Origin: Gemmatimonadaceae bacterium
Lineage (GTDB): Bacteria; Gemmatimonadota; Gemmatimonadetes; Gemmatimonadales; Gemmatimonadaceae
NCBI GenBank assembly: GCA_020851035.1
Contig: JADZDM010000005.1
Coordinates: 124,001 to 188,000, forward strand
Direction of reading: 5' to 3'
DNA length: 64,000 nt
The notes beneath the pieces were generated by a model. It saw only the letters and a list, made by a program, of their open reading frames with translations, was not told the DNA's origin and made no database searches. The position numbers and the translations under genes were made by a program. This document shows positions 17,550 to 30,730 of this stretch, in pieces (within the stretch, counting starts at the first letter, position 1; each line of letters begins with the position of its first letter).

Positions 17550-19466
17550 ATGCGAAAGGCTGCCGTCATCATCGGTGTGGATCGCACTGGCACGCTCACA
17601 CCACTGAAGTCGGCCGCACGCGGCGCCGAGTCGGTGGCCGCCTGGCTCAGCGGCGAAGGGTTCGATGTCGCATGCCTCACCGACCGCACCGAGCCCGTCA
17701 CCTGCGGCGCCGTCGAGGACGCGCTCGGCAAGTTCGTGACCGTGCCACCCCGCTACAACCTGCTGCTCGTCTACTTCTCGGGCCACGGCTACTGGCAGGC
17801 CCGCACCGACCAGTGGCTGCTGAGCGGCGCCCCGGTCAAGGCGCGCGAGGCCGTGAACCTGAGCGCCGCCATGGAGCTCGCGAAGTACTCCGGCATCCCG
17901 AACGTCGTCTTCATCTCCGACGCCTGCCGTTCCATCCCCGTCTCGCGCGGCGCGTCACTCGTCGACGGCAGCCCGATCTTCCCCAACTACGACGACATCA
18001 CGACTGCCTCGAAGATCGACTACTTCAAGGCCACCAGCGAGGCCACGTCGGCATGGGAGGGGCTCGTCGATGGCGCACCGCAGAGTGTGCTCACCACCGC
18101 CCTGATGCGTGCGTTCGAGTCACCCTTCCCCGACATGATCCGCCTCGTCACCGACGGCGATCGCACCATCACCGTCGTGCCGAACCGCCGCCTCGAGCGC
18201 TTCCTGCAGGAGGAGGTGGACGGCCTGCTCGCCAAGATCGACCCGATGCTCGTGCAGCAGCTCGAGATCAACGTGCCGTCCGGCGATGACGTCTACATCG
18301 CGAAGGTGAAGGACACGCCGGCCGACGTCGTGGCGCCAACCGCGCCCGCGCCGGATCCGACGTCAGCGCCGCGGCCCGGCTCCGCCCCGTCCGAACGGGG
18401 GCCCATGCCGGCACCGCCCCCCCCCGTGCCGCAGGCGCCGCCACGCGAGGATGGATTCGCCGGTGCCGAACCGCCGGCGGCGCGTCCCGTTGATCCCGGA
18501 CGCCGCGCCGCCGACGTGGTGGCGCAGGCGCTCGCGTCCAAGGCCTTCATCGGTGCCGACGCGGCCGAGGCGCTCACCGTGCACGACGCAGGCACCGAGG
18601 CGGCGATCCAGGAACGCATGCCATCGGACAACCTCACCTCGTTCGAGACCGGCACCGGCTTCGGTGTCACCGGCACCACCATCACGCGCGTCCTGGCGTC
18701 CCGTCGCCTCGGCGCGGCATCACCCGCCATCCCGCGCGGTGGCAGCGAGTACGTGCACGTGCAGGTGAACACGCAGGGCCCGACCTCCGTGGCCATCCAG
18801 TTCGCGGATGGCCGCAGCACCGTCCTGCCCGCGTTCCCCGGCTACCTCGGCCACATCGCCTACGGTCCCGAGGGCATCAGCACCGTGAGCTACGTGCCGT
18901 CGGAGCGCGACCCGCGGCACGACGACTACCTGGCCACACGCAAGGAACTGGACCGCCTCCGTGCCATGGTCGCACTCGCCGTGGACCGCAACACCTTCCG
19001 CCTCGGTTCGAAGCGCGCCGCCAACGAGTTCGCCCAGCGCATCCGCCCGCTCAAGCGCGTGGACCCCACGCTCGGCCTCTACGCCGGCATCGCCTACGAC
19101 GCCGCCGGCAACACCGACGCCCTCGTCAGCGTGGTGGACTTCATGCGCGAAGACATCGGCGTGGACCTGTTCGACCTCCGGCTGCTCACCTGGCGCTCAC
19201 CACAACTCGCGTTGCTGCCCACCCGCGTCGTGCCCTTCTGCCCGATGCTCACCGAAAGCTGGAACCTGCTCGCCACGCGCCCGTCGCGCGCACCGAAGGC
19301 CGCACCGGTGGAGGGTGGCGACACCACGGCACCCGACCTGCGCCCCATCGCCACCGCCGCACTGCTGGAACTCCGCCAGCACCTCTGCAACTCCCTCTGG
19401 ACCACCTTCGAGCCCGAGGGGGCCGACTTCCTCTTCACCGCCGTCGAAACGGGGCTGCTCGAATGA
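17550..19466 (+). CDS. Caspase-like (peptidase C14) protein with proline-rich linker and C-terminal domain of unknown function
   Basis: A 638-residue cytoplasmic protein; no signal peptide. Residues 1 to about 245 form a caspase-fold domain: AAVIIGVDRT strand, catalytic His79 in VYFSGHGYW and Cys126 in FISDACRS, the dyad of C14 peptidases. A linker rich in Pro and Ala spans about 258-318. The C-terminal 320 residues are globular and uncharacterised, with DPTLGLYAGIAYDAAG near residue 510. The start is ATG 17550. The stop overlaps the next gene as ATGA, so caspase and hydrolase are co-translated. Bacterial caspase-like proteases often process partner proteins in conflict or cell-death systems; whether the operon partners are substrates is inference. 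Confidence 0.9.
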   Translation: MRKAAVIIGVDRTGTLTPLKSAARGAESVAAWLSGEGFDVACLTDRTEPVTCGAVEDALGKFVTVPPRYNLLLVYFSGHGYWQARTDQWLLSGAPVKAREAVNLSAAMELAKYSGIPNVVFISDACRSIPVSRGASLVDGSPIFPNYDDITTASKIDYFKATSEATSAWEGLVDGAPQSVLTTALMRAFESPFPDMIRLVTDGDRTITVVPNRRLERFLQEEVDGLLAKIDPMLVQQLEINVPSGDDVYIAKVKDTPADVVAPTAPAPDPTSAPRPGSAPSERGPMPAPPPPVPQAPPREDGFAGAEPPAARPVDPGRRAADVVAQALASKAFIGADAAEALTVHDAGTEAAIQERMPSDNLTSFETGTGFGVTGTTITRVLASRRLGAASPAIPRGGSEYVHVQVNTQGPTSVAIQFADGRSTVLPAFPGYLGHIAYGPEGISTVSYVPSERDPRHDDYLATRKELDRLRAMVALAVDRNTFRLGSKRAANEFAQRIRPLKRVDPTLGLYAGIAYDAAGNTDALVSVVDFMREDIGVDLFDLRLLTWRSPQLALLPTRVVPFCPMLTESWNLLATRPSRAPKAAPVEGGDTTAPDLRPIATAALLELRQHLCNSLWTTFEPEGADFLFTAVETGLLE

Positions 19467-20332
19467 GAATCCTGATGATCCATGGACGCTCGCAGGGCGG
19501 GAAGATCGCCAACGAGCTCAAGGCCACCTGGACCAAGACGCTGCAGGAGGGATTCAGCGCCTGCAACGCCACCTGGCCGCAGACGGTGCAGGTGGACTTC
19601 CCCTACTACGCCGACCTCCTCGACGACTTCGCCGCCCGTGCCGGCCTCCCCTCCACCGGCGATGTCGCGGCCAAGGGCCCCGGCCAGAACGTGAAGTACG
19701 AACAGTTCATGCAGTCGGCACTGGACGAGCTCCAGGCCAACGCCGAGATCAGCGACGCCGAGGTGCAGGCACAGGTGCCCGACGGTGTGCCGCAGCAGAA
19801 GGGACCGCAGAACTGGTGGTGGGTGCAGGCCATCGCGCGCGCGATCGACAACCGGCTCGAGGGCGTCACCAGCGTCACCATCGAGACCTTCCTGAAGGAC
19901 GTATTCGTCTACGTCTCGGCACCCGCGGTCGCCAAGGCCGTCAACGCCATCGTGGAGAAGGAGATCACCACCGAGCCCACGATCGTGATCGGCCATTCGC
20001 TGGGCAGCGTGGTGGCCTACAACGTGCTCGTGAAGCACGCGCCGAACATGGCGCTGAAGAAGTTCATCACCGTCGGCTCGCCGCTGGGCCTGCGCGTCAT
20101 CAGCAGCAAGCTCGGGCTGCTCAGCAATCCGGCCGGTGCCGGTGGCTGGTACAACGCGTACGACGATCGCGACGTGGTGGCCCTCAACCCGCTCGACGAC
20201 GAGTACTTCCCCACCACACCCGGCATCGAGAACAGCAGGCACGTGCGGAATTCCACCAGCAACCGGCACGGCATCATCGGCTACCTGAACGACGCTGCGG
20301 TCGCGAAGCAGGTGGCCGACGCACTGTGCTGA
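19463..20332 (+). CDS. Alpha/beta-hydrolase, lipase/esterase-like
   Basis: A 289-residue cytoplasmic protein beginning MRILMIHGRSQGG, the first strand and oxyanion loop of an alpha/beta-hydrolase. The nucleophile is Ser179 in GHSLGS; an acid in YDDRDVVAL (about 234-237) and His269 in RHGIIGYL complete a plausible triad. The ITVGSPLG strand after the nucleophile resembles lipases. It starts inside the caspase stop (ATGA) and ends inside the next gene (7-base overlap), so all three are one translational unit. The substrate is unknown; a membrane lipid is one possibility. Confidence 0.87.
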   Translation: MRILMIHGRSQGGKIANELKATWTKTLQEGFSACNATWPQTVQVDFPYYADLLDDFAARAGLPSTGDVAAKGPGQNVKYEQFMQSALDELQANAEISDAEVQAQVPDGVPQQKGPQNWWWVQAIARAIDNRLEGVTSVTIETFLKDVFVYVSAPAVAKAVNAIVEKEITTEPTIVIGHSLGSVVAYNVLVKHAPNMALKKFITVGSPLGLRVISSKLGLLSNPAGAGGWYNAYDDRDVVALNPLDDEYFPTTPGIENSRHVRNSTSNRHGIIGYLNDAAVAKQVADALC

Positions 20333-21528
20333 CCCGCACACCCTTCGTCCCCCCGGCCGCACTCGAGTCCCTCCGCCGCCAGCAGCAGGTCGGCCGCGAG
20401 AAACTCGGCGTGTACCACGCCCTCAGTCGCGGCGACGTCCTCGCGCAGTCCCTCGCCCGCGCCGACGCCAGGGAAGGTGCGGCCACGGCGGAGGATGGCT
20501 GGATCTACTCGAACGGGATGCGCTTCCCCGAGGCCACCGAGCGGACCCGGTGGGCGCGCACCCGCGCCATCATCAGCCGCACCCAGCCCGGCACCGACGA
20601 GGATCCGAAGTACCTCGAGATGACCGCACGGCAGCTCGCGTCCATCGAAATGCTGCTCCGTGCCGATCACACCGACGCCCCGGATGCCCGCATGGCGGAG
20701 ATCTGCGATCGCATCCTGCTCGGCACCTCACCGGCGCTGGTGCCCGATGCGCTCGCCCGCCGCGTCGGCGACCATTTCATCGTGCTGGTCTCGTTCGGCC
20801 TCATCGACTTCTGCTACCAGTCGGCCAAGGCGTCGGTGCTGAGCTGGAAGCCGATCCCCGCCCCCGACGGCGTCGCCTTCAGTTTCCGGAACGAGGCCGC
20901 CCACGTCGACGAGGTGCTGGCGGCCGACCCGTCGCCGCTTCGGCTGTTCCAGTCCACGCTCGAGGCGTTCCTGTTCGAGGGGCTGCCGCGAGCCGTCAGC
21001 AACGCCCCGCCCGCCGCGAACTACCAGGCGCCCCTCGGCATCCTCACCAACGCCAACGAGCGCTTCATCCTGGCCCACGAGGTCGGTCACACCCTCCATG
21101 ATGCCCTGGACATCGTGCCCGCCGACGGCACCGCCGTGGCCGAGGAACTCGCCGTGGACGACTTCGCCTTCTACGCCGTGGTCGAGAGCGGTCACCGTTT
21201 CGACGCACTCCCGCCCAATTTCTCGGCCCAGGGTGCATATTTCGTGTTAACTGCTCTCGAAGTCATCCGACAGGCGCTCGATCTGGCCCGGCATGGCGAG
21301 GTGCGGGAGGACCACGGGTTCGTGGGCCATCCACCGGTGGCCCGGCGGTTGCAAGCGTTGCGTCAGCGGTATCTGGCGACGGTGTCGGATCGTGACGACG
21401 ACCTGTGGATCGAGCCGGCCTTGAGCCCGGCGAGAACGTTGCAGCAGCTCTGGGATCGTGTGATCGCGAATGGGGCCGCCGAGCGCTGGCGGGGCAGGAC
21501 CGTGCACCGGATCTGGGCGGGCGTGTGA
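20326..21528 (+). CDS. HExxH zinc metalloprotease-like protein
   Basis: A 400-residue protein starting at GTG 20326, overlapping the hydrolase gene by seven bases. Residues 251-255 are HEVGH, followed 17 residues later by EELAVDDFAFYAV, which supplies Glu273/274 as a third zinc ligand and resembles the E..A..FA pattern of ImmA/IrrE-type peptidases. The first 240 residues and the region after 310 match no family I recognise. The frame is open far upstream through the hydrolase gene, which is shadow. With the caspase-like protein it gives the operon two unrelated proteases. Confidence 0.82.
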   Translation: MLTRTPFVPPAALESLRRQQQVGREKLGVYHALSRGDVLAQSLARADAREGAATAEDGWIYSNGMRFPEATERTRWARTRAIISRTQPGTDEDPKYLEMTARQLASIEMLLRADHTDAPDARMAEICDRILLGTSPALVPDALARRVGDHFIVLVSFGLIDFCYQSAKASVLSWKPIPAPDGVAFSFRNEAAHVDEVLAADPSPLRLFQSTLEAFLFEGLPRAVSNAPPAANYQAPLGILTNANERFILAHEVGHTLHDALDIVPADGTAVAEELAVDDFAFYAVVESGHRFDALPPNFSAQGAYFVLTALEVIRQALDLARHGEVREDHGFVGHPPVARRLQALRQRYLATVSDRDDDLWIEPALSPARTLQQLWDRVIANGAAERWRGRTVHRIWAGV

Positions 21529-23597: not shown

Positions 23598-23767
23598 ACG
23601 CTGCTGGTGGCATTTGCGCCGGTGGTGGCGGGCTGCGAGTATGCGGAGCAGTCGGCGGCTGGCCGGCGCGCTGCGGCGACCCCGTGTGTGCAACCCGGGC
23701 GGTGCATCGTGCCGCTGCCAGTGCCGCCGCCACGGCCCCACCATCGTCTTCCCGAACCCCGATCCCC

Positions 23768-24802
23768 ATGCCGCGTCCGATGCCGGTGCGCTCCCTCATC
23801 GCCGCCCTTGCCGCGGCGCTCCTCGCCGGCGGCTGTTCCGACCGACCCACCGCGCCAGACGGTGGACTGCCGCCGATCACGAGCCTCTCCGTCTCCGGTG
23901 TGCGGGTGAACAGTGCCGATTTCCGCACCAACGGCACGTTCCGGCTCGGCCTGATCGCGACGGCGGCAGACAGCGTGCCGATCCTGAACACCGGTGTGAG
24001 CGTGGCGGTGGCGCTCACCAGCCTGTCGTCCGGCGATCCGGCCGCGTTCGCGGTGACCCGCGACAACACCACCGTCTCGCAGCCCGGCAGCGCCGACATG
24101 CGCGCCGCGATCCTGCTCGATGATTCCGGGTCGATGAGCAGCAACGATCCCACCGAGTTCCGCAGCAGTGCCGCGGAGCTGTTCTGGGCCGCCGTGCTGC
24201 CCGTGCGCGCCGGCAACCAGGTGGCACTGCTCGACTTCGGCGCCGGTGCCACCGCGCCGTTCACCAACTCGCGCCTGCTGCAGGCCTTCACCGCCGATGC
24301 CTCGCTGCTGGCCACGAAGCTGTCGGCGATCGGGGCGTTCGGCGGCACGCCGCTGTACGAGTCGCTGCTCGAGACGGTGGACTGGATGACCACCAACACC
24401 ACCGCGTCGCAGAATCGCGTGATCCTGCTGCTCACCGACGGATCGCCGAACAGCACCACCTCTCGCGACGCCGCCATCCAGGCCGCGGTGGACGCCAGCA
24501 TCACGGTGCACACCGTCGGGCTTGGCCCCGCATCCGACCAGAGCCCGAGCGTCTCCACGGCGGCACTGACGGCCGTGCGCGAGATCGCGGACCGAACCGG
24601 CGGCGTCTATTCCGCCGCCACCACCGCGCCGGCGCTGGAGCCCATCTTCGCGGCGCTCGCGCGTGCCACCAGCCGCGGTCAGCTCATCAGCACCTTCCGC
24701 ATCACCCCCGTGCCGGCCTCCGGCACGCGCGTGTCGGGCACCGTGACCGTCGGCTCCGGCGGCACCACCGGCGTGGCGAGCTTTTCGTTCGTGGCGCCGT
24801 AG
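23768..24802 (+). CDS. vWA-domain lipoprotein
   Basis: A 344-residue lipoprotein. The lipobox LLAGGC lies about 22 residues from the ATG at 23768. A beta-rich segment of about 90 residues precedes a von Willebrand A domain with an intact MIDAS: LDDSGSMSS, a Thr in GGTPLYESL, and LLTDGSPNS. vWA domains bind protein ligands through a metal. It follows the kinase gene by 170 bases on the same strand, so a link to that operon is possible but unproved. A second in-frame ATG at 23780 would also serve. Confidence 0.88.
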   Translation: MPRPMPVRSLIAALAAALLAGGCSDRPTAPDGGLPPITSLSVSGVRVNSADFRTNGTFRLGLIATAADSVPILNTGVSVAVALTSLSSGDPAAFAVTRDNTTVSQPGSADMRAAILLDDSGSMSSNDPTEFRSSAAELFWAAVLPVRAGNQVALLDFGAGATAPFTNSRLLQAFTADASLLATKLSAIGAFGGTPLYESLLETVDWMTTNTTASQNRVILLLTDGSPNSTTSRDAAIQAAVDASITVHTVGLGPASDQSPSVSTAALTAVREIADRTGGVYSAATTAPALEPIFAALARATSRGQLISTFRITPVPASGTRVSGTVTVGSGGTTGVASFSFVAP

Positions 24803-25861: not shown

Positions 25862-26051
25862 GGGGATGGAGCACTGACCCGTCGATGCTTCGCCGAACCA
25901 CCACGTGTCCTGCAGGCTCCCGGGTTTCGTGTCACGCGATCCTGCTCGCGAGCGCAGATCGGCGTTGATCGCCAGCGGGGATGCCCGGGGCACCAGGCAC
26001 CGAGGCGCATTGATCACATGCCTACAGTCACAACTTGCACCGAACGGCACG

Positions 26052-26990
26052 ATGCGATTCTGGACCGGCGTCACCGACAACCGATGGTACCAGAACCTCG
26101 CAAGCCAGGCGAGTGTGAACGAGGTCAACTTCTGGCATCCGCGCGGCCGCGCGCCGTTCTCCTCGCTGCCAGAGGGCACGCCGTTCCTCTTCAAGCTGAA
26201 GCGTCCGCACCATCACATCGCCGGTGGCGGCTTCTTCATCAAGTATGTCTCGCTCCCGATCGAGCTGGCGTGGGATGCCTTCGGCACCAAGAACGGTGCT
26301 GACACCTTCGAGCAGTTCGAGCGGCTGATCCGTGACGCGCAGGGTCCCGATGCCGACCGGACGAAGGACATCGGGTGCAGCATCCTCGGTGAGCCCTTCT
26401 TCCTGCCGCGTGACTCGTGGATTCCGCTCGAGGAAGACTTTGCTGGCAACATCGTCTCCGGGAAGTCCTTCGACTCGACCGATGGCAGCGCGGGCACGCG
26501 GATCTGGGAGTCAGTCGAGTTGGCGATGCATCTCGGTGCGGCGCGTGCGGCGATCGTCGCCGAGCGTCCGGTCATGCGTGGCACGCCGGTGCTGTTCACG
26601 CCTCGTCGAGGGCAGGGGGCGTTTCGTGCCCTCGTGACCAACGCGTACGGGCGGCGGTGTGCCATCACCGGCGAGAGCACGCTGCCCGTGCTCGAAGCGG
26701 CGCATATCAGGCCAGTGTCGAGCGATGGTCTGCACAACACGTACAACGGCCTCTTGTTGCGTTCCGACTTTCACCGGCTGTTCGATGTCGGCCTGGTGAC
26801 CGTGACGCCGGATCATCGGGTCGAGGTGAGCACGCGGATCAAGGATCTCTGGTTCAACGGCAAGGCGTACAGTCGCCTGCATGGCGAACGACTGGCCGCG
26901 CTGCCGGCTGCGCGAGAGGACCAGCCGCGCGAGGACCTCCTCCGCTGGCACAACGAGAACGTCTACGAGCGAGGATTCAGGAGTGCTTAG
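26052..26990 (+). CDS. HNH endonuclease (predicted restriction endonuclease, COG3440-like)
   Basis: A 312-residue nuclease. The N-terminal domain (FWTGVTDNRWYQNLA, EVNFWHPRG, PFLFKLKRPHHHIAGGGFF) resembles the PUA/EVE-like reader of predicted HNH restriction enzymes. The C-terminal HNH domain has CAITGES, the EAAHIRPVSS histidine, NGLLLRSDFHRLFD. I chose ATG 26052, where the conserved part starts; the frame is open from 25905. Its last eight bases overlap the MazG-like gene. Readers of this kind often recognise modified bases, so a modification-dependent nuclease is possible; no methylase is nearby. Confidence 0.88.
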   Translation: MRFWTGVTDNRWYQNLASQASVNEVNFWHPRGRAPFSSLPEGTPFLFKLKRPHHHIAGGGFFIKYVSLPIELAWDAFGTKNGADTFEQFERLIRDAQGPDADRTKDIGCSILGEPFFLPRDSWIPLEEDFAGNIVSGKSFDSTDGSAGTRIWESVELAMHLGAARAAIVAERPVMRGTPVLFTPRRGQGAFRALVTNAYGRRCAITGESTLPVLEAAHIRPVSSDGLHNTYNGLLLRSDFHRLFDVGLVTVTPDHRVEVSTRIKDLWFNGKAYSRLHGERLAALPAAREDQPREDLLRWHNENVYERGFRSA

Positions 26991-27324
26991 CCCCGAGACG
27001 CTTCAGGCCTTGCTTCACTTCCGGCGGGAACGCGACTGGGAGCAGTTTCATTCCCCGCGCAACCTGGCCATCGCGATCGCCGTGGAGGCGGGAGAGTTGC
27101 TCGAGCAGTTCCAGTGGATGAAGGACGGAGAATCACGGCCGACGGCGGCGCAGCGTGACGCGCTGGAGCTCGAGATGGCGGATGTGGCCATCCTGTTGTC
27201 GTACCTCGCCGCCGATCTCGATGTCGACCTCGACGCGGCTGTCCGGCGGAAGCTCGCGGTGAATGCGGGACGGTATCCGGTGGCAAAAGCCCGGGGGTCG
27301 GCGGTGAAGTACGACGCGTTGTGA
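26983..27324 (+). CDS. MazG-like nucleotide pyrophosphohydrolase
   Basis: A 113-residue all-alpha NTP pyrophosphatase. The metal-binding helices are present: AVEAGELLEQFQW (EAxELxE) and LELEMADVAILLSYLA (ExxD). These enzymes hydrolyse (d)NTPs to monophosphates and clean or lower nucleotide pools. The start is GTG 26983, inside the 3' end of the HNH gene, with GAGG eight bases upstream. Coupling to a nuclease gene suggests a joint role in DNA conflict or damage; this is inference. Confidence 0.88.
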   Translation: MLSPETLQALLHFRRERDWEQFHSPRNLAIAIAVEAGELLEQFQWMKDGESRPTAAQRDALELEMADVAILLSYLAADLDVDLDAAVRRKLAVNAGRYPVAKARGSAVKYDAL

Positions 27325-27545
27325 GGATCTGTGGCGCGCGTGGTGAACACCTAGGTCCGGCATTCGCGGACACATGAGAACCGGCCACCATGGCAATGGC
27401 GCCGAGTCGTTGCTCACCCTTCGCTCCGACCGCCAATCCCAAGACTCAGCCCTGCCTCGAGGGAGGAGCTGATTCCGTGGTTCGAGCATGTCGACTCAGC
27501 ACGCACGGCACCGCGCGCAGTGCCTGAGCTCGGACTCGCGTGCTC

Positions 27546-28751
27546 TCAGCCGTTTCGACGCGCCTCACCCTCCTCCATCTCCTGCACCAGCGCCAGCAAC
27601 CCTGCCGCCTCCCACACCTGGTTCCGCGCGCCTCCTGCAAGCGGCACCAGCACGCCCGCCCCCACCAGCTGCCGGATCCCCTCGTAGATCGGCGCCTTCG
27701 CACGCCCCGTCGCCGCCGCGGCAACCGGAGCCGACATCACCGGATGCGCCGGCAGCACGTCGATCACCGCCCACGCCGCCGCATCGGCACGCGGCGCCTC
27801 CGCTGACGTAGCCAGCCGCTCACGCCACTCCGCCACCAGCATGGTCACACGACCCAGGTATGCCGAGGCGAGTGTCGCCGCCGTCGCGGCCGCCGCCGCG
27901 AACTGGGCCACCCAGGCCTCCACACGCTCGGCACGGAAGTCCGTCAGCCCCGCGATGTACCGATCTTTCGCGCGCGCGAGCACGACACTGATCGGCGGCA
28001 CATAGTCCGGCGCCAGCCCACGTCGACGCAGCACGACCTGCACCAATGCGCGCCCGGTGCGACCGTTGCCATCGTCGAACGGATGAATCGTCTCGAATTG
28101 CGCATGCACCAGCGCCGCCTGGACGATCGGTGGGAGCGTGTCGTCGTTGATGGCCTCGCACAGGTCGTCCAACAGCGATGCGACATGCTCCGGTGGCGGC
28201 GGGACGAAGTCGGCGCCGCACGGGTTGTAGTCGTTGCCGCCGATCCAGTTCTGCGTGGTCCGTATGCGATCCGCCACACGCGCCGCGTTCGCCGCACCCG
28301 CCATGAGTCGTGCGTGGATCGCCGTGATCTGGTCCACCGTGAAGGCCGGGGCGCGCGCGGCTGCATCCGTCGCGAGCCGCATCGCATCGACGTTCGCCAG
28401 GACATCCACGGCCGTCGGCGCCACGCGCTGTCCCGCCGCGGACTTGGCCTCCGCACGCGCCAGCTCGCGCACACCGACCTGCAGCCCCTCCACTTTCGAC
28501 GAAGCGATGGACTCCGTCCGGAGCAGCAACCGAGCGAGCGGCGCCAGCGCTGGCCGGGCCGAAGCGTTCAGGCGCTGGATCGCCGCCTCAGCCTCCGAGA
28601 CCACCCCGGCCGTGTCTGCTCCCAGCGGGATAGCCAGCTCAGCCATTGCGGCTGGGACAAACGCCTCGTAGCCGCACGCACGCCTGTACTTGGGAGGTGC
28701 GTACAGCGTGGGGTCGTGCTGCCACGTCAGGGCGATAGTGCGAGGCGGCAA
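27546..28751 (-). CDS. Fic-family protein with N-terminal inhibitory motif and C-terminal winged helix
   Basis: A 401-residue Fic protein. The active-site HPFDDGNGRTGR (223-234) is complete, so AMP transfer to protein hydroxyls is predicted. The inhibitory helix SSKVEG (84-89, Glu88) lies N-terminal to the Fic core, making it the self-contained inhibited type. The C-terminal region from about 330 (APIYEGIRQLVGAGVLVPL, NQVWEAAGLLALV) looks like a winged helix that could bind DNA. The start is TTG 28751, chosen because conserved residues begin at once (LTWQHDPTLY) and AGG lies upstream. A repeated TTCGG/CCGAA array lies just upstream, so autoregulation is plausible. Confidence 0.9.
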   Translation of the reverse strand: MPPRTIALTWQHDPTLYAPPKYRRACGYEAFVPAAMAELAIPLGADTAGVVSEAEAAIQRLNASARPALAPLARLLLRTESIASSKVEGLQVGVRELARAEAKSAAGQRVAPTAVDVLANVDAMRLATDAAARAPAFTVDQITAIHARLMAGAANAARVADRIRTTQNWIGGNDYNPCGADFVPPPPEHVASLLDDLCEAINDDTLPPIVQAALVHAQFETIHPFDDGNGRTGRALVQVVLRRRGLAPDYVPPISVVLARAKDRYIAGLTDFRAERVEAWVAQFAAAAATAATLASAYLGRVTMLVAEWRERLATSAEAPRADAAAWAVIDVLPAHPVMSAPVAAAATGRAKAPIYEGIRQLVGAGVLVPLAGGARNQVWEAAGLLALVQEMEEGEARRNG

Positions 28752-28770
28752 GGTGAACCTGGGCTGGCTA

Positions 28771-28848
28771 CTTGGTTCGGTTTACTGGCTATCCCGAACC
28801 AAGAGAACGCCATAGTTCGGTTTAGGCAACACTCGAAGCCCGAACAAA
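28771..28848. promoter_or_regulatory. Operator-like array upstream of the Fic gene
   Basis: Four related half-sites: TTGGTTCGGTTTA (28772), CCCGAACCAAG (inverted, 28793), TAGTTCGGTTTA (28813) and CCCGAACAAA (inverted, 28839). The first two form a 10-bp inverted repeat (CTTGGTTCGG/CCGAACCAAG, 13-base spacer). The set ends 20 bases upstream of the Fic start and is less GC-rich than its surroundings, as a promoter/operator would be. Confidence 0.55.
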
Positions 28849-28879
28849 GGCATAGTCTCTACCCTCCGGGCACAGCGCC

Positions 28880-30730
28880 CTACCCCCCGCGCACCACCCG
28901 CTCGATCTCACGGATCGTCCCCCGATCATCTCCCATCATCCCCTTCATCGCCGACACCCGCCCCGCCACCACCCGCGCGATCCGCACCTCCACCGTGTCC
29001 TCCCCGAGCATCCAGTACTGCAGACTGCTCCGCCCATCCCGGTGCGTCCGCCCCTCGATCTGCGCCATCTCCAGCGCACTCCACCGCAGGTCATGAATCA
29101 ACTGCCCCCGCTCCACATCATTCCCACCCACCGCACGCTCCCCCGCGTGCAGGCTGATCCCCTCCTTCACCGTGTAGATCACCACCGGACACTCCCCGCG
29201 CTGGAACCGGATCCGCTCCGCCTCCTTCTCGCCAGCCGGCATCCCGCCCTTCAACACCGCACACGCATACCGCTCCTTCTCCAGCGCTGAACGGATCACC
29301 TCGAGCGTCTCGTGAAACTCCACCGAGATCGCCACCTGCTTCCCGTTCTCCAGCAGCTCGATCGCCTGCGCAATCGTCGCACCCGTCCGCAACAGGCTCG
29401 CCTTCTGCCGGAACCGCAGCTGCACCACCAGCGCATGCTGCTCGCTGATCCCACCCTGCGCGATCAGTCCCAGCTCCTCCCGGAACTCATGCCACGCCGC
29501 GTCGTACAGCGCGCGCTCGTCATGATCCAGCACCACCGGTGTCAGCAGCCGCGTCACCTCCGGCCACCCTGCGATGTCACTCGGCCGGCGCCTGATGCCC
29601 GCCGGACGTCGACCCCCGAACAACAGCCCGCGGATGATGTCGATCGCCTCCGGGTTCTCCGCCTCGTTCCACACCCACTGCCCGTACGATGACGTGAGGT
29701 GGATGCCGCGCCCGGCACACCAGGTGCGGAAGTCGTTCACCTCCGAGAGCTTGTCGCCCGTGGTGCTGGCCAGCAGCGGCGCGAGGTACTGCAGCTCCAC
29801 CGGTGACTGCCCTGCCGTGGCCGAGAGCCAGAGCGTGAACCCGGCCGCGCGCTGCAGGCGACTCACGAGCTTCGAGCGAGCGGATGCCGGGTTCTTGCAC
29901 TTGTGCGATTCATCCAGGATCAACACGTCGAACCCCAGCGCCTTCGCGAACCGGGCCAGCCCCTTCTTCGACCGCACCCGCGTCGACGATTCCGACGCGT
30001 CGAACAGCTTCTCCAGCCGGTCGTAGTTGATGCAGACGATCCACTTCCCCTCGTCTCCCATCTGGGCGATCGTGCGCCGCCAGTGCGGCACCACGTCTTT
30101 CGGCGACACGATGCACACCGTCACGGCGTCCTTCATGCGCAGCACTGCACCCCACGCCGAGATCGTCTTGCCGATGCCCACGTCATCGGCCAGCAGGAAG
30201 CCCGGGCGTTCCGCCGCACGCGCGCCGAAGATGCGCCTGATCGCCTCCACCTGGTGTGGACGCGGCACGGGAGCGTCGACCGCGGGCGGTGTGTACGTGG
30301 GCTCGACGATGTCGTTCAGCTCCGCCTCCACCCACCGCTCCCACGAGTAGGGCTGGTTGCGGTACGACGTCAGCGCGTCGGGCACCTCGTGCCCTGCATA
30401 AGTCCAGACCTTCTGCGTGCTGTCGTACCGCGCCCCCGCCTCGCGCGCCAGCGACTTCAGCGCGAACGGCACGTCGAGCACATGCACCGGCGCCGGGCCC
30501 GCCTGTCGCGGCGCGCTCACGACCCGCCCTGCCGGTGCGATGCGCTCCATCGCCAGCACCGTCTGCGCCGAGCCGAGTGAGTAGCGACGGAGTGCAGCAG
30601 GCAACTCCGCTGCGGTGACGGCCCAGGTGCGCGTGGCCGGCTGCCAGGTCATCGGCGTGCCGGCACTGCGCGCCACAAGCTTCGCGGCGTCGCGCTCACC
30701 GGGGGGAATGGACAGCGCGAAGGTGGGCAT
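28880..30730 (-). CDS. SNF2-type DEAD-like helicase with two N-terminal DUF5710-like repeats
   Basis: A 616-residue superfamily 2 ATPase. Walker A is DDVGIGKT (182-189), motif II is DESH (273-276), motif III SATA (303-306), and motif VI EGRTHRDG near 570, the SNF2 pattern. The N-terminus has two similar short units, about 4-38 (FALSIPPGERDAAK..., TRTWAV) and 84-112 (VPFALKSLAREAGARYD, KVWTYAG), like DUF5710. Such enzymes translocate on duplex DNA. There is no nuclease domain; the HNH, MazG and Fic genes are close. The start is ATG 30730. The gene stops 129 bases from the Fic start, on the same strand. Confidence 0.88.
   Translation of the reverse strand: MPTFALSIPPGERDAAKLVARSAGTPMTWQPATRTWAVTAAELPAALRRYSLGSAQTVLAMERIAPAGRVVSAPRQAGPAPVHVLDVPFALKSLAREAGARYDSTQKVWTYAGHEVPDALTSYRNQPYSWERWVEAELNDIVEPTYTPPAVDAPVPRPHQVEAIRRIFGARAAERPGFLLADDVGIGKTISAWGAVLRMKDAVTVCIVSPKDVVPHWRRTIAQMGDEGKWIVCINYDRLEKLFDASESSTRVRSKKGLARFAKALGFDVLILDESHKCKNPASARSKLVSRLQRAAGFTLWLSATAGQSPVELQYLAPLLASTTGDKLSEVNDFRTWCAGRGIHLTSSYGQWVWNEAENPEAIDIIRGLLFGGRRPAGIRRRPSDIAGWPEVTRLLTPVVLDHDERALYDAAWHEFREELGLIAQGGISEQHALVVQLRFRQKASLLRTGATIAQAIELLENGKQVAISVEFHETLEVIRSALEKERYACAVLKGGMPAGEKEAERIRFQRGECPVVIYTVKEGISLHAGERAVGGNDVERGQLIHDLRWSALEMAQIEGRTHRDGRSSLQYWMLGEDTVEVRIARVVAGRVSAMKGMMGDDRGTIREIERVVRGG

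Follow-up and report, generated by a model that had tools for sequence, protein, structure and literature searches.

What do a caspase-like protease, an alpha/beta-hydrolase and an HExxH metallopeptidase do together when they are encoded by three overlapping genes of a Gemmatimonadaceae bacterium, and do all three belong to one system? The genes lie in the window, the 64,000-nucleotide stretch of DNA analysed here, and a sequence-only reading had taken them for a sensor–protease–effector trio. The co-translated operon and the combination of a protease with a lipase-like effector are supported by our data, but the unit that is conserved is a pair. Our preferred reading, to which we assign a probability of about 0.45, is a mobile two-gene caspase–hydrolase conflict cassette, serving self-destruction or defence, with an optional metallopeptidase; in it the caspase would cut the lid of the hydrolase and so activate a lipase.

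The three genes and their products

The three open reading frames and their overlaps were confirmed from the sequence (Table 1). The caspase and hydrolase frames have the 4 bases ATGA in common and the hydrolase and metallopeptidase frames the 7 bases GTGCTGA. The putative GTG start at 20326 was chosen as the one that fits the overlap; the metallopeptidase frame is open far 5' of it, to 18961. Such an arrangement strongly suggests co-transcription and coupled translation, although an overlap is no proof that the three products "must be made together", as had been stated.

Table 1. Coordinates in the window of the three genes and of the domains, residues and candidate sites discussed in the text.
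Feature	Position	Strand	Basis
Caspase-like (C14, MALT1-like) protease gene	17550..19466	+	ATG start; PF00656 match and model
Caspase His79, catalytic	17784..17786	+	Kept in 15/15 sequences retaining the region
Caspase Asp124-Ala-Cys126, catalytic Cys with Asp at -2	17919..17927	+	D and C in 15/15 sequences retaining the region
Disordered proline-rich linker, caspase residues ~256-318	18315..18503	+	pLDDT <50 for residues 251-350
Caspase C-terminal domain, residues ~340-638	18567..19463	+	Conserved in all pairs; model
Alpha/beta-hydrolase gene, lipase/thioesterase-like	19463..20332	+	ATG start; adjoins caspase of same type in 17 loci
Lys71-Gly72, candidate cleavage site 1	19673..19678	+	Lowest-confidence loop of model
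Lys113-Gly114, candidate cleavage site 2	19799..19804	+	Basic-Gly conservation
Nucleophile Ser179 (HSLG motif)	19997..19999	+	Invariant, 17/17 sequences
Asp237, candidate triad acid (alternative: Asp234)	20171..20173	+	Invariant, 17/17 sequences
His269, candidate catalytic His	20267..20269	+	Invariant, 17/17 sequences
Zinc metallopeptidase gene, peptidase_U41-like	20326..21528	+	GTG start; PADLOC profile match
HEVGH, residues 251-255	21076..21090	+	Sequence
Glu273/274 of metallopeptidase	21142-21147	+	Sequence
HPP (335-337), part of distal HPP..R motif	21328-21336	+	Sequence

The caspase domain matches Pfam PF00656 with 43 bits against a cut-off of 21.4, which places it in the C14 superfamily, and the best match of its AlphaFold2 model was MALT1 (Z 22.3, 214 aligned residues, rmsd 3.4 Å); the models of the caspase and the hydrolase were both built on 7 sequences. 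A PDB sequence search with the caspase returned nothing. Paracaspases and metacaspases with Arg/Lys specificity have an Asp two residues before the catalytic Cys, as this caspase does, and by analogy the enzyme is expected to cut after Arg or Lys. Its linker contains the motif ERGP (residues 282–285), which resembles site 2 of several hydrolases (see below), a likeness that may be due to chance. In the C-terminal domain a beta-rich half (370–450) of the model is followed by a helical half (456–633). The domain matched no Pfam family and so did not prove to be a known housekeeping module; a structure search with the whole caspase model as query gave no fold match for it, and in the plasmids it was found only in caspases of this type. 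The window's own genome contains five more C14 genes (contigs C2, C10 and C21), none of which has this hydrolase partner.

For the hydrolase, the fold and the Ser-Asp-His triad place the protein in the alpha/beta-hydrolase superfamily; its Pfam clan matches are weak and all below the cut-offs. Its model (pLDDT 80) is covered over the greatest length by DDHD/NirD domains (216–221 residues, Z 12.3–12.6, rmsd ~5 Å) and also matches TesA, LPLA2 and LCAT (Z 12–13), with weak Foldseek E-values (best 5e-3).

The metallopeptidase matched the PADLOC peptidase_U41 profile (PDLC03011) with an E-value of 1.1e-7 over residues 238–350, a partial match to profile positions 152–248 of 378. No Pfam family exceeded its cut-off for this protein, a PDB sequence search with it returned nothing, and its N-terminal ~235 residues belong to no known family. 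The features listed in Table 1 bear out what had been read from the letters: the His79/Cys126 dyad, the proline-rich linker and the unrecognised domain of the caspase, the full Ser/Asp/His set of the hydrolase, and the HEVGH motif with a downstream Glu in the third gene.

Distribution and mobility of the pair

Our data support a caspase–hydrolase pair, and not the trio, as the conserved unit. A caspase with its C-terminal domain and the hydrolase are neighbours in 17 loci of Gemmatimonadota, Pseudomonadota and Bacteroidota (including one in Rubrivivax whose caspase is cut by the contig end). With the hydrolase as query, full-length relatives turned up in Rubrivivax, Flavobacterium and a gammaproteobacterial MAG as well as in three more genomes of the phylum, and the gene directly 5' of every one of them encodes a caspase whose C-terminal domain is of the same type. 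Further loci came from plasmid records (rhizobial, Agrobacterium, Bradyrhizobium, Ensifer and Hymenobacter), and G307, another genome from the genus of the window, holds a further pair. Many of the junctions are 4-base overlaps, ATGA or GTGA; the others are overlaps of at most 35 bases or gaps of a few to ~100 bases, these distances depending on the start codons used. The two genes have been inherited together: the hydrolase distance matrix correlates with that of the caspase domain (Mantel r 0.87) and with that of the C-terminal domain (r 0.75), and 0 of 5000 permutations gave as high a value in either case. One record labelled as an Acinetobacter phage (L062, CAKLQH020000003) carries ftsI, mraW, gltX and several tRNAs and looks like a bacterial chromosome.

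The pair is horizontally transferred and mobile. The window hydrolase is 61% identical to the Rubrivivax copy and 56% to the gammaproteobacterial one, and 34–38% identical to copies from its own phylum, its own genus included (the hydrolase of locus L065 is left out of these identities and of the comparison with caspase-less homologues below). Of 395 genomes from the phylum, only 5 hold a close copy. Within the genus one genome lacks the pair and another has a 34%-identical version, and in the genome without the cassette the synteny with the window ends at the S9 gene adjoining it. The pair is often carried by conjugative plasmids. This patchy, plasmid-borne and horizontally moved distribution, together with the PADLOC matches for the caspase and the peptidase_U41 domain, makes an ordinary proteolytic or lipid housekeeping operon very improbable, even if such an operon would suit the immediate upstream neighbours, ordinary-looking genes for S9 and M24 peptidases, of which the divergent S9 gene is the nearest to the caspase. 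At 25905–30730 of the window, 4–9 kb downstream of the cassette, genes for an HNH nuclease, a SoFic-type Fic protein and an SNF2-type helicase with PADLOC matches form a possible defence region.

The sequence-only reading had suggested a search for the trio as a conserved neighbourhood; what is found is mostly the pair, a metallopeptidase of the same profile being missing from 15 of the 17 loci and adjoining one locus besides that of the window. In that locus, from Ensifer, the caspase is preceded at a distance of 116 nt by an ORF that matches the peptidase_U41 profile over the same stretch and shows the same order of HExxH, Glu and HPP..R, this last being itself a weak match; the ORF is the sole match to the profile on a 1.46-Mb plasmid, and the window metallopeptidase is the sole one in its own genome. 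Since both loci hold such a gene, downstream of the pair in the window and upstream of it in Ensifer, a U41-like protease has become attached to the pair on two or more occasions and not always on the same side, and the metallopeptidase looks like an optional third gene. That it is a mere chance neighbour of a two-gene cassette appears doubtful: the 7-base overlap in the window, the Ensifer gene so close to the pair and alone of its kind on the replicon, and a CapP-like M78 metallopeptidase 0.8 kb downstream of the pair in R. ruizarguesonis all argue against it, while its absence from most pair loci and the full-length search of 298 genomes of the phylum, which returned chance matches only, are what such a neighbour would lead one to expect. 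Plasmids, viral contigs and pair-bearing genomes yielded no full-length relative either. One candidate relative (L008) was rejected as not being a gene match, and the peptidase_U41 matches examined elsewhere in the phylum (L038, L039, L041) are PPC-repeat secreted proteins with no link to a caspase.

Other genes are found beside individual pairs. The Ensifer pair is followed after 33 nt by the gene of a second HExxH protein (HESTHH; no Pfam family; L051 8900–10618), and the Flavobacterium pair has a C1 papain directly upstream. In R. ruizarguesonis (L060 9337–11417) the pair is followed on its 3' side by a CapH-like HTH protein, the CapP-like M78 protein fused to an I42 chagasin inhibitor, and a C1 papain. 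A weak transglutaminase-like match was obtained for an 832-residue ORF (L029 3501–5999) that stops 24 nt 5' of the caspase. At L027 (2993–6025) 135 nt separate the pair from an upstream gene with kinase-, FHA- and TIR-looking parts, beyond which lies another caspase-like gene.

Candidate cleavage sites and the proposed switch

Cleavage-site-like sequences conserved in a partner, the search for which had been suggested as a check, were found in the hydrolase. It contains exactly two [KR]G dipeptides, both in loops of the putative lid, and residues 66–71, ending at the Lys of site 1, are its sole stretch of at least 3 residues with pLDDT <50. Site 1 reads [K/R]G in 12 of 17 hydrolases and Met-Gly in four divergent pairs; at site 2 a basic residue precedes the Gly in 15 of 17, and one divergent pair lacks the site. 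Lys and Arg replace each other at both sites across the copies while the Gly is retained; in the main clade both sites are conserved as [K/R]G. Neither site is kept in any of four caspase-less homologues (one with no protease neighbour, one with a NACHT neighbour, one viral and one fused to a trypsin), a comparison that is small and phylogenetically confounded. The Gly of site 2, followed by a conserved NWxW helix, may be structural. At the level of sequence, the two conserved basic-Gly sites are only suggestive of caspase cut sites.

According to the preferred reading, the C-terminal domain would hold the caspase inactive, sense a trigger, or both. Once active, the paracaspase-like protease would cut the lid-like segment of the hydrolase after Lys or Arg, between residues 71 and 72 and between 113 and 114, which would free the lipase-like Ser-Asp-His active site; the freed lipase might then damage lipids, so that the cell is killed or arrested. 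By cleaving either the caspase or the hydrolase, the metallopeptidase may set off the switch or adjust it. A more specific version can be put forward with considerably less assurance: a plasmid-spread self-destruct cassette in which the MALT1-like caspase makes two Lys/Arg-Gly cuts and so excises the lid of a dedicated pro-lipase, and an interchangeable extra protease is the trigger. Such a lid-excising cassette would be a lipid-directed counterpart of the caspase-activated nuclease and gasdermin systems.

The close co-inheritance would suit a stable complex equally well, in which the hydrolase is not a substrate and senses, restrains or de-acylates a caspase that itself kills by attacking cell or phage proteins. 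Relatives of the hydrolase are associated with a CHAT protein, a trypsin-like fusion and a NACHT-WD protein, which also speaks for such a role. The triad is, however, invariant in all copies, and the complex would leave the two conserved basic-Gly sites unneeded, so that we hold this explanation to be unlikely. In S. fredii (L057 8001–10006) a related hydrolase is followed by a CHAT-domain protease, which suggests that the hydrolase can change its protease partner. Weak hydrolase relatives (L034–L037), rejected here, have no caspase and are either unrelated fusions or exported esterases.

In two rhizobial loci (L052 6017–8870 and L054 6106–8867) the caspase and the hydrolase alike bear Tat-type twin-arginine signals. 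Because both partners bear them, they go to the same compartment, and in some rhizobia pairs of this type are probably exported together. Exported versions do not fit the sensing of cytoplasmic phage; the shared signals speak for the partnership, yet they indicate an envelope role in these loci. A system of the envelope or of lysis, acting on membranes or exported proteins, in response to predators or membrane stress or in developmental lysis, and not in phage defence, would also agree with the lipase-like fold. We consider it rather improbable as a general explanation, most versions of the pair, that of the window included, having no signal peptides.

Comparison with known systems

The sequence-only reading gave no known named system with exactly these three genes. 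In the literature searched we found no name for a stand-alone caspase–hydrolase cassette, but there are precedents, and the kind is already known because obligate caspase and alpha/beta-hydrolase neighbours inside VMAP systems were noted earlier (Kaur 2020, PMC7159879). There, too, the caspase is always adjoined by an alpha/beta-hydrolase, whereas the pair of the window is a stand-alone two-gene unit with a C-terminal domain of its own. No VMAP family was matched at E<=1 in 16 members. MoxR AAA+ and vWA genes are further components of the VMAP ternary system; the window has a vWA gene at 23717–24802, and a scan of 10 neighbours revealed no MoxR.

In the second precedent, canu (CanABC, Science 2025, PMC12799240), a caspase activates a pro-nuclease via two gating insertions with conserved Gly, and mutating either gating site abolishes defence; an Ig-like domain follows the canu caspase. 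Both systems have a MALT1-like caspase and, downstream of it, a partner enzyme in which two loops with a conserved Gly are the proposed cut sites; the partner in canu is an MBL-fold nuclease, which the window does not have downstream of its caspase, whereas here it is an alpha/beta-hydrolase with predicted cleavage. The EACC1-caspase systems (Kaur 2020) likewise have an N-terminal caspase in a two-gene cassette, but the window lacks a 5' EACC1 gene on the same strand and its caspase scored 34.9 bits with NCBIfam caspase_w_EACC1 against a cut-off of 140. The CapH/CapP regulators (HTH and M78) resemble our locus in that a metallopeptidase is attached to a conflict cassette, and a CapH/CapP-like pair is present at L060; the window metallopeptidase, in contrast, is U41-like and not M78, with no adjoining HTH gene seen.

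The double cut proposed here is new, and so are the stand-alone cassette and the C-terminal domain of its caspase. If confirmed, the cassette would be the stand-alone form of a pairing noted, in the literature found, only inside larger conflict systems; it would name two residues whose mutation bears directly on the mechanism, and bacterial programmed death driven by caspases would then include a lipase-like effector besides nucleases and pores.
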